Assembly: GCA_900315995.1 (NCBI GenBank)
Contig: ONBF01000001.1
Coordinates: 1 to 44,328 of the forward strand
From: an uncultured Eubacteriales bacterium
Lineage (GTDB): Bacteria; Bacillota; Clostridia; Christensenellales; RUG350
DNA: 44,328 bases
Reading direction: 5' to 3'
The notes beneath the pieces were generated by a model that worked only from the letters and a program-made list of their open reading frames with translations, was not told the origin of the DNA and made no database searches. Below, in pieces: positions 33,339-44,328 of the stretch (positions within the stretch are counted from its first letter, which is position 1; every line of letters starts with the position of its first letter). Position numbers and translations under genes: made by a program.

Positions 33339-33414
33339 GGGGGTGTAGCTCAGCTGGGAGAGCACCTGCCTTGCAAGCAGGGGGTCAGCGGTTCGATCCC
33401 GCTCATCTCCACCA
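33339..33414 (+). tRNA. tRNA-Ala (TGC)
   Basis: 76 nt with encoded CCA. The anticodon arm CCTGC-CTTGCAA-GCAGG carries TGC. The acceptor GGGGGTG pairs with CATCTCC through two G-U pairs. It is first in the unit, before tRNA-Ile, the reverse of the common 16S-Ile-Ala-23S order. Confidence 0.95.
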
Positions 33415-33470
33415 CTTAATATTCCGATTGTCATACGTTAGGCGGAATATAAGACTTAATTCGCGCATGT

Positions 33471-33547
33471 GGGCTCATAGCTCAGCCGGTTAGAGCACAC
33501 GCCTGATAAGCGTGAGGTCGGTGGTTCGAGTCCACTTGAGCCCACCA
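33471..33547 (+). tRNA. tRNA-Ile (GAT)
   Basis: 77 nt with encoded CCA. The anticodon arm ACGCC-TGATAAG-CGTGA has GAT, and the acceptor GGGCTCA/TGAGCCC is perfect. It lies 56 nt after tRNA-Ala and about 150 nt before 23S rRNA. Confidence 0.95.
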
Positions 33548-37550: not shown

Positions 37551-37586
37551 TGGCTCCCCCTGTTGGACTTGAACCAACGACACTGC
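37551..37586 (-). pseudogene. Truncated tRNA-Asn (3' half only)
   Basis: 36 nt identical to the 3' half of the intact tRNA-Asn at 37714-37749 except for one base (position 37570). It covers the 3' side of the anticodon stem, the variable loop, the T arm, the acceptor 3' strand and CCA. The 5' half is replaced by unrelated sequence that includes a CCCC/GGGG inverted repeat (about 37596-37619), so no tRNA can fold. It has its own terminator. The duplication resembles the attachment-site copy left by integrative elements. Confidence 0.85.
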
Positions 37587-37675
37587 TCTTCTTACCCCAA
37601 AAAACAAGTTTTTCGGGGACCCCGATATAGTGTTAATCCTCGCGCCGTTGCTTCGTATTGATAGAGTAGGGAGTA

Positions 37676-37713: not shown

Positions 37714-37789
37714 TGGCTCCCCCTGTTGGACTCGAACCAACGACACTGCGGTTAACAGCCGCATGCTCTACCGACTGAGCTAAGGAGGA
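37714..37789 (-). tRNA. tRNA-Asn (GTT)
   Basis: 76 nt with encoded CCA on the minus strand. The anticodon arm GCGGC-TGTTAAC-CGCAG gives GTT; the acceptor TCCTCCT/AGGGGGA has one U-G pair and the discriminator is G. It is monocistronic. Confidence 0.95.
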
Positions 37790-37841: not shown

Positions 37842-38009
37842 GTAGTTTTAATGGTGTGAATAAATATTTTATCAATATTTATGTTTTTTCAAGTTTAGTC
37901 GGAATATTCAGAAATTTGCTTTTAGTATAAAAAACAATAATCATATTATGGTGAAAAATAAAATTATTTGTTAATTATTGCAGAGAAATAAAAAGTTTGT
38001 TACAATAAT

Positions 38010-38129
38010 AAAAGTAAAGACCTCCAAAAGAGGTCTCGTAGCACTCACTGTGCAGTCGGTCAAAGCCGACGATTTGAAATAATTTTTATTTGAACTCGTA
38101 GTGTAAATTTATAGGGAAAATAAATTTAC
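38010..38129 (-). ncRNA. tracrRNA of the type II-A CRISPR system
   Basis: The DNA at 38098-38118 is identical over 21 nt to bases 9-29 of the CRISPR repeat, so the minus-strand RNA is a perfect anti-repeat there. Next come GAGU (38097-38094), a bulge opposite the repeat's GA, and UCAAAU (38093-38088), which pairs with the repeat's GUUUGA. This upper stem, bulge and lower stem match the SpCas9 duplex design. Further downstream are a nexus-like hairpin GUCGG/CCGAC (38070-38055), a GCAC/GUGC hairpin (38053-38041) and a terminator AGACCTC/GAGGTCT (38036-38018) followed by a T-rich tract. About 120 nt if it starts near 38129. A consensus promoter lies just upstream. Confidence 0.9.
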
Positions 38130-38135
38130 AATATG

Positions 38136-38164
38136 ATAATAACAAAAATAAGAGGTTTTGTCAA
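38136..38164 (-). promoter_or_regulatory. Promoter of the tracrRNA, overlapping the cas9 start codon
   Basis: On the minus strand, TTGACA (38164-38159), a 17-nt spacer and TATTAT (38141-38136). The first base of the -35 box is the A of the cas9 ATG, and the spacer covers the cas9 ribosome binding site. Predicted transcription start is near 38129. Confidence 0.85.
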
Positions 38165-41100
38165 TGGAAAACAAAAAATATTTTATCGGACTCGACATCG
38201 GAACAAATTCTATCGGATATGCCGTTACAGACGAAGAATATAAGCCACTCAAATATAAGGGTGAAATGGTTATGGGGACGCATATTTTTGAAGAAGCGAT
38301 GGACGGACAAACTCGTCGCACTGCGCGTACGGCAAGACGTAGGTTGGATCGAAGGCAATTTAGGGTAAAATTAGTGCAAGAACTCTTTGAGAATGAAATA
38401 CATAAAATTGATCCTAAATTCTTTCAAAGAAGGGGAGAAAGTGCGTTATGGAGAGATGAAGCAGACGAGCCATATACTGTTTTTTGTGATGAGAATTATA
38501 ATGATAAAGACTATTACAAAGAATATCCGACGATACATCATCTTTTAGTAGAGTTGATGAAAAATAAAGAGCCACACGATGTTAGATTGGTTTATATTGC
38601 AATTGCTTGGCTTGTTGCTCATAGAGGTCACTTTTTACAAGAAATTGATACGGATTCAATAGATAAGATTATAGACTTCAAGTCGGTTTTTGAGCCATTC
38701 AAAGAATATTTCGCAATTAATGAATATGATTTTCCATGGGAAAAAGAGATAAATATAAAAGAGTTAGGTGAAGTATTAAAGCAAAAGACAGGGGTTAATG
38801 CCAAAAAATTAAAAGTCACCGATATGTTTTTCGGAAACAAAAAGCCATTAAATGATACAAGTGAAACGTTCCCTTATTCGAGAATTAAAATAGTTGATTT
38901 GCTTTGCGGTGGTAAAGTTAATCTTAAAGACTTATTTAATAATGATGCGTATGAAGATATAGAAGAATTAAAAAGTTTTAGTCTTAATATGTCGGACGAT
39001 AAGATTGACGCTGCATATTCAAGTCTTGGTGACGATGCAGATTTGATTAGATTGTGCAAACAAATATATGATTGGGCGCTACTTGCAGATATTCTTAGCG
39101 GATATGATTCGATTTCTGCTGCGAAAGTTGCAATATATAATCAACATTCCGCTGACCTTAAAAAGTTAAAAGCGTTTGTTAAAAAATATCTTTCAGACAA
39201 ATACAATTATATTTTCCGTTCAAAGAGAAAAGACAGCTATGCTGTTTACGTCGGTCATCTTAAATCTTTCAATTGCAAAATTGAGAATGACGATAAAGTT
39301 AAAGATGATTTTTTGGTCGCGCTCAAAAAACTTGTTAAAGAAATTAACGTAGAAGATGATGACAAGGCTTTTTATGATGATATGCTCAAAAGGCTCGAAC
39401 TCGGAACGTTTTTGCCGTTACAAGTAAGCGGGGATAATAGGGTTATACCGTATCAAGTTTATTTATTTGAATTAAAGACTATTCTTAATAACGCAAAACA
39501 GTATTTAGCATTTCTTAACGAAGTAGATGAAGATGGAATCAAAGTAATGGAAAAGCTCATTTCTATATTTACGTTCCGCGTGCCGTATTTTGTAGGACCG
39601 TTAAGAAAAGACGGCAATCCACACGCTTGGATAGAGCGTAAGAGCGACGGACGGATAACGCCTTGGAATTTTGAACAGAAAGTTGATCTTGCTACTACGG
39701 AAAAAGGCTTTATCGATAGAATGATATGTAGATGCACTTATTATCCGGGCGCATCGGTATTACCTAAAAACTCGCTATTATATGCGGAGTTTGAAGTGTT
39801 AAATGAAATTAATTGTATAAGAGTAAACGGAGAACGTATCAGTGTTGAATTAAAACAAAGAATATATGACGAGTTATTTAGAAAACATAGAAAAGTCACG
39901 TATAAAAAAATAGTAGACTTTATACATAGCGAAAATATTCAAGGCGAGATAAAGGGTATAGATAAGGAAAGCATAAAGTCATCATTGACCGCAGAGCATG
40001 ATTTCAAGCGTTTACTTGATGCAAAAGTTTTGACTCGTGCCGACGTAGAAAAAATAATTGAACATATTACGTATACTGAAGATAAAGGACGCTTATTAAA
40101 GTGGTTAAAAGATAATTATTCACAACTTGTTGAAGATGATATTAAATACATCTCAAAACTTAATTATAAAGATTTTGGCAGATTGTCAAAAGAGTTTCTT
40201 GCGGGCGAATTGTCGGGTGCTGACAAGCTTGGCGGAACGGGAGAATTGACTAGTGTAATACAAGCTATGCGAGATACAAATTGCAACTTGAACGAAATAT
40301 TAAGTGATAGATTTACGTTTAAGGCAATGTTGAAGGAAATATGTGATGAATATTACAAAGAACATCCGACGACGTTACAAGACAAAATGGATGGATTGTA
40401 TCTTTCTGCTCCTGTAAAAAGACAAGTGTTTAGGACTTTGAATATAATTTCCGATATAACGAAAGCATGTAAAGGTATGCCTGATAGAATATTTATAGAA
40501 ATGGCGCGCGGTGCGGAAAAGGACAAGAAAGTAAAGAGAACGAAAACACGTAAAGAGCAGTTAGATGAATTATACGCAAATATTAAGAACGAAGACGTTG
40601 AGAAAATGCGCAACGAGCTCAAGGCAATGGGCGAGCAAGTAGATAACAAACTGCAAAGCGAAAAACTATTCTTATATTATCTGCAACTTGGAAAGTGCAT
40701 GTATAGCGGGGAACCGATAGACATTAACGAGTTAATGCGCAGTAATCAGGCAAGATATAATATAGAGCATATTTACCCGCAATCAAAAGTTAAAGACGAT
40801 AGCATAACTAACAATAAAGTGCTCGTATTATCTACGATTAACGGAGATAAAGGTGATACGTATCCAATTGACGCAAAGATACAAAATAAGATGCGCAGCA
40901 CGTGGGATAATTATCATAAATACAAGCTTATCACGGACGAAAAATATAATAGATTAATACGTACTACGCCGTTCAGTGAAGAAGAAAAAATGGAATTCAT
41001 TAATAGACAGCTTGTTGAGACAAGACAGTCGACTAAAGCCGTTGCAAGTCTCCTTAGAGAGTTGTATCCCGATTCGACCGTAGTATACGTAAATGCAGGA

Positions 41101-42267
41101 TTGGCGTCATCGTTTAGACAAGAGTTTGATATGCTTAAGTCGCGTTCGGTTAACGATTTACATCATGCAAAGGACGCGTATCTTAATATAGTCGTAGGCA
41201 ATGTTTGGTATGAAAAGTTTACAAAGAAATTTTTCATCAAAAGAGAGTTTGACGATAATTATAACTTAAATATTGATACGATTTTTTCACAAAAACAGTA
41301 CTCGAACGGAAAGTGTATTTGGCAGGGCGATACGTCAATTGAAGACGTTAAAAATGTACTTAAAAAAGACGCGATACGTTTGACTGTGTTTAAGTATATT
41401 CGTAAAGGTGCGCTTTTTGATTTGTTGCCGGTAAGTAAAGCAAAAGGATTAGTACCGCGTAAAATTAAGAAATATAAAAATACCGAACGTTACGGCGGAT
41501 ATAGGAAGTCAACTGCTGCGTTCTTTATTCCCGTATCGTTTGTTTGTGGCAAACGAAAAGACATAATTATTATGTCGGTTGAAGGCTTGTTTGCGGATAA
41601 ATTTTTAGCGGACGACGCGTTTGCCGAGCAGTATGCACGTCAAAGTATATCCGAGTTATGCGGTGGTAAAGAAATAACCGATATAGGATTTCCTATGGGC
41701 AAGCGTGTTTTGCGCGTAAATACCGTATTGTCTCTTGATGGATATAGAGTGTGCATTACGGGTAAATCTAACGGCGGAAAGGAATTATTAGTAGCGTCGT
41801 TAGTTCCGCTTGCTATAGGTTATAATTGGGAGCGATATATCAAACGTTTAGAGCGTTTTGCAGAGAAGAAAAACAATAAGAATCTTATTATAGATGAAGC
41901 GTATGATAAGATTACGCGTGAAGAAAATGAGAAGTTATACGAAATTTTCTTGGATAAAGCAAAGAACTCATTGTTTAGAATTCGTCCTAATATGCCGATA
42001 GATACGATAGAAAACGGATTTGATAGTTTTAGAAACTTAAAAGTTGAAGAACAAGTTATGGCTTTACTCTCTATTCTTAGCGTATTTAGTCGAAGCGGTG
42101 GTACAAAAGATTTATCGTCAATTGGTGGTACAAAAGCTATGGCGTTAATGAGAATAAGTGCTTATGTTTCGAATATGAAAAAATCGTATTCTGACGTAAG
42201 AATAATCGAATGTTCAGCGTCAGGCTTATTTGAATCTTCGTCAAAGAATTTATTTGAGTATCTATGA
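38164..42267 (+). CDS. cas9: Type II-A CRISPR RNA-guided endonuclease Cas9
   Basis: 1367 residues, close to SpCas9 in size. RuvC-I 'YFIGLDIGTNSIGYAV' has catalytic Asp11; an Arg-rich bridge helix follows ('RTARTARRRLDRRQFR'). RuvC-II is 'PDRIFIEMARG' with Glu779, the HNH motif 'YNIEHIYPQSKVKDDSITNNKV' has His869, and RuvC-III 'DLHHAKDAYLNIVVG' has His1001 and Asp1004. The Asn of 'INGDKGD' aligns with SpCas9 Asn863. The HNH metal-ligand Asp before the His is Glu868 here. The C-terminal third forms the WED/PAM-interacting region, whose PAM cannot be read from sequence. ATG 38164 follows AGAGG by 8 nt; an in-frame TTG at 38158 is less likely. The gene is more AT-rich than the host's housekeeping genes and overlaps cas1 by ATGA. 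Confidence 0.97.
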   Translation: MENKKYFIGLDIGTNSIGYAVTDEEYKPLKYKGEMVMGTHIFEEAMDGQTRRTARTARRRLDRRQFRVKLVQELFENEIHKIDPKFFQRRGESALWRDEADEPYTVFCDENYNDKDYYKEYPTIHHLLVELMKNKEPHDVRLVYIAIAWLVAHRGHFLQEIDTDSIDKIIDFKSVFEPFKEYFAINEYDFPWEKEINIKELGEVLKQKTGVNAKKLKVTDMFFGNKKPLNDTSETFPYSRIKIVDLLCGGKVNLKDLFNNDAYEDIEELKSFSLNMSDDKIDAAYSSLGDDADLIRLCKQIYDWALLADILSGYDSISAAKVAIYNQHSADLKKLKAFVKKYLSDKYNYIFRSKRKDSYAVYVGHLKSFNCKIENDDKVKDDFLVALKKLVKEINVEDDDKAFYDDMLKRLELGTFLPLQVSGDNRVIPYQVYLFELKTILNNAKQYLAFLNEVDEDGIKVMEKLISIFTFRVPYFVGPLRKDGNPHAWIERKSDGRITPWNFEQKVDLATTEKGFIDRMICRCTYYPGASVLPKNSLLYAEFEVLNEINCIRVNGERISVELKQRIYDELFRKHRKVTYKKIVDFIHSENIQGEIKGIDKESIKSSLTAEHDFKRLLDAKVLTRADVEKIIEHITYTEDKGRLLKWLKDNYSQLVEDDIKYISKLNYKDFGRLSKEFLAGELSGADKLGGTGELTSVIQAMRDTNCNLNEILSDRFTFKAMLKEICDEYYKEHPTTLQDKMDGLYLSAPVKRQVFRTLNIISDITKACKGMPDRIFIEMARGAEKDKKVKRTKTRKEQLDELYANIKNEDVEKMRNELKAMGEQVDNKLQSEKLFLYYLQLGKCMYSGEPIDINELMRSNQARYNIEHIYPQSKVKDDSITNNKVLVLSTINGDKGDTYPIDAKIQNKMRSTWDNYHKYKLITDEKYNRLIRTTPFSEEEKMEFINRQLVETRQSTKAVASLLRELYPDSTVVYVNAGLASSFRQEFDMLKSRSVNDLHHAKDAYLNIVVGNVWYEKFTKKFFIKREFDDNYNLNIDTIFSQKQYSNGKCIWQGDTSIEDVKNVLKKDAIRLTVFKYIRKGALFDLLPVSKAKGLVPRKIKKYKNTERYGGYRKSTAAFFIPVSFVCGKRKDIIIMSVEGLFADKFLADDAFAEQYARQSISELCGGKEITDIGFPMGKRVLRVNTVLSLDGYRVCITGKSNGGKELLVASLVPLAIGYNWERYIKRLERFAEKKNNKNLIIDEAYDKITREENEKLYEIFLDKAKNSLFRIRPNMPIDTIENGFDSFRNLKVEEQVMALLSILSVFSRSGGTKDLSSIGGTKAMALMRISAYVSNMKKSYSDVRIIECSASGLFESSSKNLFEYL

Positions 42268-43139
42268 GTTGGCGTACGGTTGTAGTTGAGACGAGAAGTA
42301 AACTTGACTACAAAATGGGCTTTCTCGTCGTTAGAAATGAAAAAATCGAGAGAATTTATCTTGATGAAATAGCTATTCTTATGATAGAAAATCCCGCCGT
42401 GTCATTGACAGGGTGCTTATTGAATGAACTTATTAAAAAGAAAATAAAAGTTATATTTTGTGATGAAGTTCATTCTCCTATATCTGAACTTTTGCCGTCG
42501 TACGGCTCTTACGACACTTCGCGCAAGATAAAGTCGCAGATAGCGTGGGGAGATGATATTAAAAGTTTAGTGTGGACGGAAATAGTTGCTGAAAAAATTC
42601 GTAATCAAGCATTATTTTTGGATGAACTTGGCAAAAGTGACGAGGCTCGTCATTTAAGAAACTTTGTTGACGAATTAACAGTCGGAGATAAGACGAATCG
42701 AGAAGGGCACGCGGCAAAAGTATATTTTAATGCATTGTTCGGGCAAAGTTTTACAAGGACTTCCGATAACGCAATGAACTCAGCATTAAATTATGGATAT
42801 AGTATACTTTTGTCGGCGTTTAATAGAGAAATAGCTATGCATGGGTATCTTACGCAGCTTGGGCTTGCGCATGATAACATGTTTAATTATTATAATTTAA
42901 GTTGTGACCTTATGGAGCCGTTCAGGATACTTGTCGATAGATTTGTGTTTCATTCAAATTTTCAAGAATTCGGAACGGACGAAAAGCATAAACTCTTGGA
43001 ATTGGTTAAAACAACGATAACTATTGACGACGCACGTCAATCATTACTCAACGGTATTAAAATATATGTAAGAAGTGTATTTATGGCACTTAACGATTCA
43101 GATGTGTCGAAATTAAAATTCTATAGAGAGAACGAATGA
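42264..43139 (+). CDS. cas1: CRISPR-associated endonuclease Cas1 (type II)
   Basis: A 291-residue integrase that, with Cas2, inserts new spacers at the leader end of the array. The metal-binding residues fit the family: Glu148 in 'TNREGHAAKVYFNALFG', His203 in 'LGLAHDNMFNYYN' and Glu218 in 'CDLMEPFRILVDRFV'. The N-terminal beta domain ('RTVVVETRSKLDYKMGFLVVRN') is typical of subtype II Cas1. The start overlaps the cas9 stop by four bases and the stop overlaps cas2 in the same way, so the operon is translationally coupled. Confidence 0.96.
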   Translation: MSWRTVVVETRSKLDYKMGFLVVRNEKIERIYLDEIAILMIENPAVSLTGCLLNELIKKKIKVIFCDEVHSPISELLPSYGSYDTSRKIKSQIAWGDDIKSLVWTEIVAEKIRNQALFLDELGKSDEARHLRNFVDELTVGDKTNREGHAAKVYFNALFGQSFTRTSDNAMNSALNYGYSILLSAFNREIAMHGYLTQLGLAHDNMFNYYNLSCDLMEPFRILVDRFVFHSNFQEFGTDEKHKLLELVKTTITIDDARQSLLNGIKIYVRSVFMALNDSDVSKLKFYRENE

Positions 43140-43456
43140 GTTATAGGTTTATGCGAGTAATGGTATTTTTTGATCTGCCGACGGAAACGACGGAAAATAG
43201 AAGGGAATACGCAAGATTTAGACGATCGCTTATTAAAAGTGGTTTCATAATGATGCAAGAATCCGTTTATTGTAGAATGCTTATTAATCAGCAAGCAGGA
43301 CAAATGGTAATTAATACTATTCGTCAAAATCGTCCGCCGCATGGTATTGTGCAAGTTATGATGATTACCGAGAAACAGTTTTCTAAGATAGAAATGATTA
43401 CGGGAAGTTATCAAACGGAAGTATTGACGGGAGACGAAAGGTTGGTTTTTATATGA
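43136..43456 (+). CDS. cas2: CRISPR-associated protein Cas2 (type II)
   Basis: 106 residues with the ferredoxin-like start 'RFMRVMVFFDLPTETTENRREYARFRRSLIKSGF' and Asp13 at the end of strand 1. It is the dimeric structural core of the Cas1-Cas2 spacer integration complex. 'MMQESVYCRMLINQQ' is the conserved second block. It overlaps both neighbours by ATGA. Length is normal. Confidence 0.95.
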   Translation: MSYRFMRVMVFFDLPTETTENRREYARFRRSLIKSGFIMMQESVYCRMLINQQAGQMVINTIRQNRPPHGIVQVMMITEKQFSKIEMITGSYQTEVLTGDERLVFI

Positions 43457-44118
43457 AACTTGCATATCCGCAATTACAAAGCGTATTAGATACGGAGATA
43501 GCGGGCATTAATACGCTTGTTATCGAAAACAAAGATTTTTTTGTTCAATTTCTTAACGATATAGTTGCGCAAATTGACGGTATGACCGGACAGGCTGTTC
43601 TTTCGCTTGACGGAGATATTATTGAAATATCAAAATATGTGGAGGTGCTTGATAGATTTGTACCTTTTGAAATTAATAAAAAGAACTTGCTTAATAAAAT
43701 CTTGCATTCTTTTGAGAAAACGTCACTTGATGAAGAACATTTCGAGGCAACGCAAAAATTGTTGATTGAGATAGAAAATTATATGGATGATATTGCATTT
43801 GCTGAATCTTGTGATATAATGTGTACAAAGGTTTCAATATCTAACTTAATTCGTTCGGTAGGTATTGAAATTAGAGATGAGTACGAAAGTTTGGGCGAAA
43901 AAGTGCTTGATTATATGGAAATGGTCAGAGCATATGACCATGAAAAGTTATTTATATTCGTAAACTTTCGTAGTTATATGCCCGACGATAAGTTAGATTT
44001 GTTTATAAAAAGTGCATTATCGAAATGTCTTAAATTTATTTTAATAGATTCGGCGGGATATGAAATTTTGCCGAGTGAAAAACGTATTACGATAGATAAA
44101 GACCTTTGTGAATTTTGA
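43453..44118 (+). CDS. csn2: CRISPR-associated protein Csn2
   Basis: 221 residues; the gene that defines subtype II-A. Csn2 forms a tetrameric ring that slides on DNA ends and is needed for spacer acquisition with Cas1, Cas2 and Cas9. The sequence shows the compact alpha/beta start 'MKLAYPQLQSVLDTEIAGINTLVIENKDFFVQFLNDI' and 'EKLFIFVNFRSYMPDDKLDLFIKSALSKCLKFILIDS' near the C-terminus, which fits the short canonical (S. pyogenes-like) form. Csn2 families diverge strongly, so the subfamily is inferred from length and position. ATGA overlap with cas2. Confidence 0.88.
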   Translation: MKLAYPQLQSVLDTEIAGINTLVIENKDFFVQFLNDIVAQIDGMTGQAVLSLDGDIIEISKYVEVLDRFVPFEINKKNLLNKILHSFEKTSLDEEHFEATQKLLIEIENYMDDIAFAESCDIMCTKVSISNLIRSVGIEIRDEYESLGEKVLDYMEMVRAYDHEKLFIFVNFRSYMPDDKLDLFIKSALSKCLKFILIDSAGYEILPSEKRITIDKDLCEF

Positions 44119-44211: not shown

Positions 44212-44328
44212 GTTTGAGAGTAGTGTAAATTTATAGGGAACTAAAACATACACGGGGCGGCAGGTTTGCGCGACCGTGTTTGAGAGTAGTGTAAATTTAT
44301 AGGGAACTAAAACGAGATTGACCGAGAG
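44212..44328 (+). CRISPR. Type II-A CRISPR array, leader end (continues beyond the window)
   Basis: Two identical 36-nt repeats at 44212-44247 and 44278-44313, beginning GTTTGAGAGTAG and ending GGGAACTAAAAC, with a 30-nt spacer (44248-44277) between them. A second spacer starts at 44314 and is cut by the edge after 15 nt. Repeat length, the GTTTGAGAG start and the AAAAC end are typical of II-A. The leader lies to the left, so these are the newest spacers. Spacer 1 is GC-rich (20 of 30 bases), unlike the local DNA. Confidence 0.97.

Follow-up and report, generated by a model that had tools for sequence, protein, structure and literature searches.

A tracrRNA promoter at the translation start of cas9 in a type II-A CRISPR locus and its relatives, with possible interference with cas9 transcription

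The type II-A locus and its tracrRNA gene

The window (the whole stretch of DNA that was analysed, 44,328 nucleotides from an uncultured Eubacteriales bacterium) carries a type II-A CRISPR-Cas locus in which cas9, cas1, cas2 and csn2 are accompanied by an array with 36-nt repeats, and a predicted tracrRNA gene lies upstream of cas9 on the opposite strand. The window ends right after the second repeat of the array.

38164-42267, plus strand: cas9 (type II-A; NCBIfam TIGR01865, 852 bits)
42264-44118, plus strand: cas1, cas2 and csn2 (TIGR03639, TIGR01573 and TIGR01866)
44212-44313, plus strand: start of the CRISPR array, two 36-nt repeats (GTTTGAGAGTAGTGTAAATTTATAGGGAACTAAAAC) flanking one 30-nt spacer
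38013-38129, minus strand: predicted tracrRNA of about 117 nt, which starts near 38129, 7 nt past the -10 box, and ends in the terminator
38103-38129, minus strand: predicted 10-bp hairpin in which the 5′ end of the tracrRNA pairs with the anti-repeat
38098-38118, minus strand: anti-repeat core, the plus strand of which is identical to repeat positions 9-29 (21/21)
38017-38037, minus strand: intrinsic terminator of the tracrRNA

By structure and complementarity the predicted RNA is a tracrRNA, because it combines an anti-repeat, a terminator, the usual tracrRNA hairpins between these two elements, and a promoter of its own. Its predicted fold is stable compared to those of shuffled sequences (z of -5.3). 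In an Rfam scan no family scored above threshold for the tracrRNA, and only a tRNA passed the threshold.

Hairpins comparable to the one predicted at the 5′ end of the tracrRNA are found in 26 loci (the window and 25 relatives, for example L003, L004, L042, L043 and L071), and the types of base pair vary widely at equal positions while the pairing is kept, a descriptive comparison that was read from single-sequence folds. In L042, L073, L071 and L005 the anti-repeat has a G where the complement of the repeat has an A, a change after which the base can still pair with the repeat (as G-U) and within the hairpin (as C-G). The hairpin does not simply follow from a palindromic repeat, because the repeat complement alone lacks this fold in 12 of 13 cases (0 to -1.7 kcal/mol, with -4.9 kcal/mol in the remaining case), while the tracrRNA 5′ ends reach -3.2 to -10.4 kcal/mol. 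The duplex with the crRNA is far stronger than the hairpin (-24 to -44 kcal/mol compared to -3 to -10 kcal/mol), so the crRNA would be expected to win at equilibrium, and the hairpin is possibly a protective cap, or a lid for the crRNA to displace.

The promoter predicted to transcribe the tracrRNA is interleaved with the translation start of cas9, which has its ATG at 38164-38166.

38164-38136, minus strand: whole tracrRNA promoter, TTGACA-17-TATTAT with an extended -10 (TGn), matching the consensus at 11/12 positions
38159-38164, minus strand: -35 box TTGACA, the first base of which pairs with the A of the cas9 ATG
38158-38142, minus strand: 17-nt promoter spacer
38136-38144, minus strand: extended -10 element TGT-TATTAT, with the hexamer at 38141-38136 and the TG at 38144-38143
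38150-38155, plus strand: cas9 Shine-Dalgarno sequence AAGAGG, within the -35/-10 spacer of the tracrRNA promoter

The first-pass annotation of this DNA had described such a minus-strand promoter, with a -35 box that shares the A of the cas9 start codon (the base at 38164) and a spacer that covers the cas9 ribosome binding site, and all of these elements were confirmed; the extended -10 TG was absent from that description. Its assignment of the promoter to a tracrRNA directed away from cas9 is likewise borne out by the anti-repeat, hairpins and terminator that lie downstream. When the 1.3 Mb genome is searched with the strict pattern TTGACA-N14-TGN-TATNAT, 7 matches are obtained compared to 0 for a reversed control, and among the 7 only the copy at cas9 occupies an antisense gene start.

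Position of the tracrRNA promoter among relatives

Cas9 searches of whole genomes, among them a phylum-wide search that contributed one new locus, and of one genome collection provided 78 readable upstream regions, the window included; Streptococcus loci were compared through published papers only. The Cas9 proteins of the sampled loci are mostly 33-50% identical to that of the window. A tracrRNA landmark lies 50-130 nt before cas9 in 60 of the 78 regions, and these 60 are taken as the loci with a divergent tracrRNA. Promoters were scored by consensus matches, and a minus-strand promoter was counted when it reached a score of at least 10 of 13 within -60 to +10 of the cas9 start. Such a promoter is present in 58 of the 60 loci, compared to 1.0 expected from dinucleotide shuffles, and at a score of at least 11 the observed count is 46 loci, compared to an expected 0.12 from shuffles of the same kind.

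The first base of the -35 box falls at offsets of 0 to -8, between the Shine-Dalgarno sequence and the start codon, in 36 of the 60 loci, and in these interleaved loci the Shine-Dalgarno sequence lies in the promoter spacer, as it does in the window. The -35 box is placed upstream of the Shine-Dalgarno sequence in another 22 loci (21 at -15 to -32 and one at -50). The offsets from -9 to -14, at which the -35 box would coincide with the Shine-Dalgarno sequence, are empty, as if both signals had been retained. In nearly all relatives the -35 box reads TTGAC[A/T/G], and the conserved feature can be stated as TGTCAA or AGTCAA at 0-8 nt or 15-32 nt from the cas9 start. The suggestion in the first-pass annotation that the overlap might be conserved therefore holds for the closeness of the two signals, but not for the exact motif TGTCAATG, which is ruled out as the conserved unit because an offset of 0 occurs in only 4 of the 60 loci. 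The offset is uniformly -2 in the Cas9 clade nearest to the window and 0 in the window itself. Mapped on a tree of Cas9 proteins, the layouts switch 5 times, compared to 17 times with shuffled labels, a difference whose weight is limited by the quick construction of the tree and by the presence of near copies.

Two more distant loci, L032 (Veillonella) and L083, have the tracrRNA landmark 178-224 nt upstream of cas9 and do not have the compact layout, which indicates that type II-A systems can do without the closeness. A Cas9 subclade consisting of L072, L075, L076, L077 and L079 has a different conserved tracrRNA motif (CCTTATTTGCACTC on the plus strand), and it still has a minus-strand promoter-like site near the cas9 start.

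Placement of the cas9 promoter

Plus-strand promoters with a score of at least 9.5 are found around or upstream of the tracrRNA terminator in 53% of loci, and the mean plus-strand score in this zone exceeds that of shuffles by 1.57 (s.e. 0.20); promoters of the same score are found inside the tracrRNA body in 0% of loci and between the anti-repeat and the ATG in 2%. A site of this strength is missing from the expected zone in 47% of loci. The first-pass annotation had looked for a cas9 promoter just before cas9 and had reported no equally good promoter on the plus strand between 38090 and 38160. The absence of a good one is upheld, since the sole candidate there, TTTATA-18-TATGAT, matches at 9/12 positions and lies in a zone that is hardly enriched in relatives, but the search had been made in the wrong place, given that the plus-strand promoters of the relatives cluster upstream of the terminator. 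A cas9 promoter located between the tracrRNA and cas9 is thus unsupported, and the most likely location, as judged from consensus matches and from the relatives, is upstream of the entire tracrRNA gene.

37978-38006, plus strand: probable cas9 promoter, TTGCAG-17-TACAAT with an extended -10 TG, weak by consensus (9/13)

Because the plus-strand promoters cluster upstream of the terminator, the tracrRNA gene would be nested in antisense orientation in the cas9 5′ UTR, with the two promoters convergent, and the conflict between the two genes would consist of convergent promoters whose transcripts overlap in antisense over about 115 nt, and not just of an occupied start. A polymerase making cas9 mRNA from upstream has to traverse the tracrRNA promoter, and on this point the first-pass annotation is supported. 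The mean best promoter score is 11.1 for the minus strand and 9.5 for the plus strand in the terminator zone, an asymmetry in consensus strength which favours the tracrRNA but is only indicative, because the two scores have different maxima and were taken over different zones.

Within the predicted leader of the cas9 mRNA, the sense strand of the anti-repeat forms a 21-nt copy of the CRISPR repeat core (38098-38118, plus strand), through which the leader could pair with the tracrRNA and compete with the pre-crRNA.

Proposed interference, alternatives and known systems

The reading we prefer, to which we assign a probability of roughly 0.6, is that the locus has a compact and conserved form of the region upstream of type II-A cas genes, where cas9 is weakly transcribed and meets interference from strong initiation at the tracrRNA promoter. 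The tracrRNA would be transcribed away from cas9 by a strong promoter on the minus strand that is interleaved with the ribosome-binding site of cas9, while a weaker plus-strand promoter just past the tracrRNA terminator would transcribe the mRNA of the cas operon, with a 5′ UTR of about 150 nt that would be antisense across the entire tracrRNA gene. The promoters would face one another with predicted starts approximately 115 bp apart, and a polymerase at or leaving the tracrRNA promoter would be expected to hinder a polymerase coming from the cas9 promoter, both by sitting-duck interference and by collision; the complementary tracrRNA and cas9 leader may in addition pair. The net result would be abundant tracrRNA, low Cas9 and anticorrelated outputs. 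The predicted geometry, with opposed promoters and overlapping transcripts derived from consensus-based sites, fits convergent-promoter interference, and tracrRNA and Cas9 production probably compete for a single stretch of DNA here and in approximately 57 relatives.

The chief rival explanation is neutral compaction, in which the tracrRNA gene and cas9 have been packed together until their signals touch and the overlap itself regulates nothing. The closeness could be a by-product of such packing: the offsets range from 0 to -32 (apart from the locus at -50), exact overlap is rare, and interleaving requires no special sequence because GGAG can lead directly into GTCAA. We nevertheless regard neutral compaction as the less probable account, though one with a substantial claim, because the closeness has been retained in nearly all of the divergent loci despite the low identity of most of their Cas9 proteins to that of the window, and because the opposed cas9 promoter, which is placed by the same evidence, leaves some interference hard to avoid. 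A different form of competition would arise if cas9 were transcribed from the TTTATA-18-TATGAT site itself (38108-38137), which overlaps the -10 box of the tracrRNA promoter, so that polymerases would compete at overlapping opposed promoters. The site matches at 9/12 positions and its predicted start would put the Shine-Dalgarno sequence in a short leader, but the near absence of enrichment between the anti-repeat and the ATG in relatives makes this arrangement improbable. Autoregulation by Cas9 with a long tracrRNA acting as a natural single guide (tracr-L), as in S. pyogenes, which would make the overlap incidental, is more improbable still: the tracrRNA 5′ end does fold on its own anti-repeat in a manner that resembles the upper stem of a single guide, and repression of Pcas by tracr-L is established (PMC11417352), but the predicted tracrRNA begins at the base of the hairpin with neither a guide nor a lower stem, the sole second copy of at least 11 nt of the upstream extension in the window is nearly pure A+T (AAATATTTTATC) and lies 302 nt upstream of cas9, far from the probable cas9 promoter, and a search for a guide target found no convincing match near that promoter and none that is consistent in relatives, so that the locus is not classed with the natural single guide systems.

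The closest known case to the proposed convergent interference is the P2cas layer of Streptococcus agalactiae, in which the cas operon is driven by a distal promoter, P2cas, that lies at the tracrRNA 3′ end. Where P1cas has been deleted, P2cas is both required and sufficient, and it can be the sole cas promoter (PMC12216829); antisense RNA over the tracrRNA 3′ end has been recorded there by dRNA-seq (PMC4448216). Both systems are type II-A with a divergent tracrRNA and a distal cas promoter that transcribes antisense through the tracrRNA, the last of these being a prediction in the present locus. S. agalactiae differs in having a second, autorepressed promoter, P1cas (deleted in some strains), which is repressed by tracr-L, and in the control of P2cas by CovR, whereas here there is hardly room for a P1cas-like promoter because the tracrRNA promoter sits at the cas9 start. 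In the present case most or all cas transcription across a broad clade seems to come from the distal promoter, and the tracrRNA promoter has been relocated into the cas9 translation start. The tracr-L/Pcas system of S. pyogenes SF370 (PMC11417352) is also type II-A with a divergent tracrRNA upstream of cas9, but no guide extension or target match was found here, and the coupling would be achieved by promoter geometry and not by Cas9.

Convergent promoters and antisense transcription are described as causes of interference in bacteria (PMC6593788, PMC4731013). Such convergent promoters share with the present locus a face-to-face arrangement, here approximately 115 bp apart and with one promoter stronger, but differ in that here the antisense product would repress the gene of a protein for which it also serves as functional cofactor. 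In the Faecalibaculum rodentium FrCas9 locus (PMC8931148), the tracrRNA is similarly located upstream of cas9 and opposite to the cas genes, its direction having been determined by small RNA-seq in E. coli. The individual parts of the locus are ordinary type II-A parts. The geometry, with a tracrRNA promoter at the cas9 start, was not found described in the literature searched, which was non-exhaustive and included few subscription journals.

Overproduced Cas9 is costly, and the known brake on it, tracr-L, is one that has been worked out in streptococci. Promoter geometry and antisense transcription may serve as a brake in a broad set of other type II-A systems, and cas9 genes cloned from such loci without the upstream region would lose it, if it acts as presumed. 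A more tentative extension, which we consider rather doubtful, is that a large Clostridia-type type II-A clade controls the dose of Cas9 without tracr-L, by means of a cofactor gene nested antisense in the cas9 leader, a promoter in the cas9 ribosome binding site and an anti-repeat capped by a conserved hairpin of its own; if this is true, then tracrRNA production, cas9 transcription and crRNA loading would be linked in that clade.

The DNA upstream of the locus contains two near-identical copies of the 3′ part of a tRNA-Asn gene (CTCCCCCTGTTGGACT[T/C]GAACCAACGACACTGC) about 160 bp apart, of which the copy at 37716-37750 belongs to an intact tRNA-Asn and the copy at 37555-37590 is a fragment of the kind that a duplication, or an integration event at a tRNA gene, leaves behind. 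Genes for tRNA-Ala and tRNA-Ile are adjacent at 33339-33547, a few kb before the CRISPR locus, in an arrangement like that of an rRNA operon spacer.
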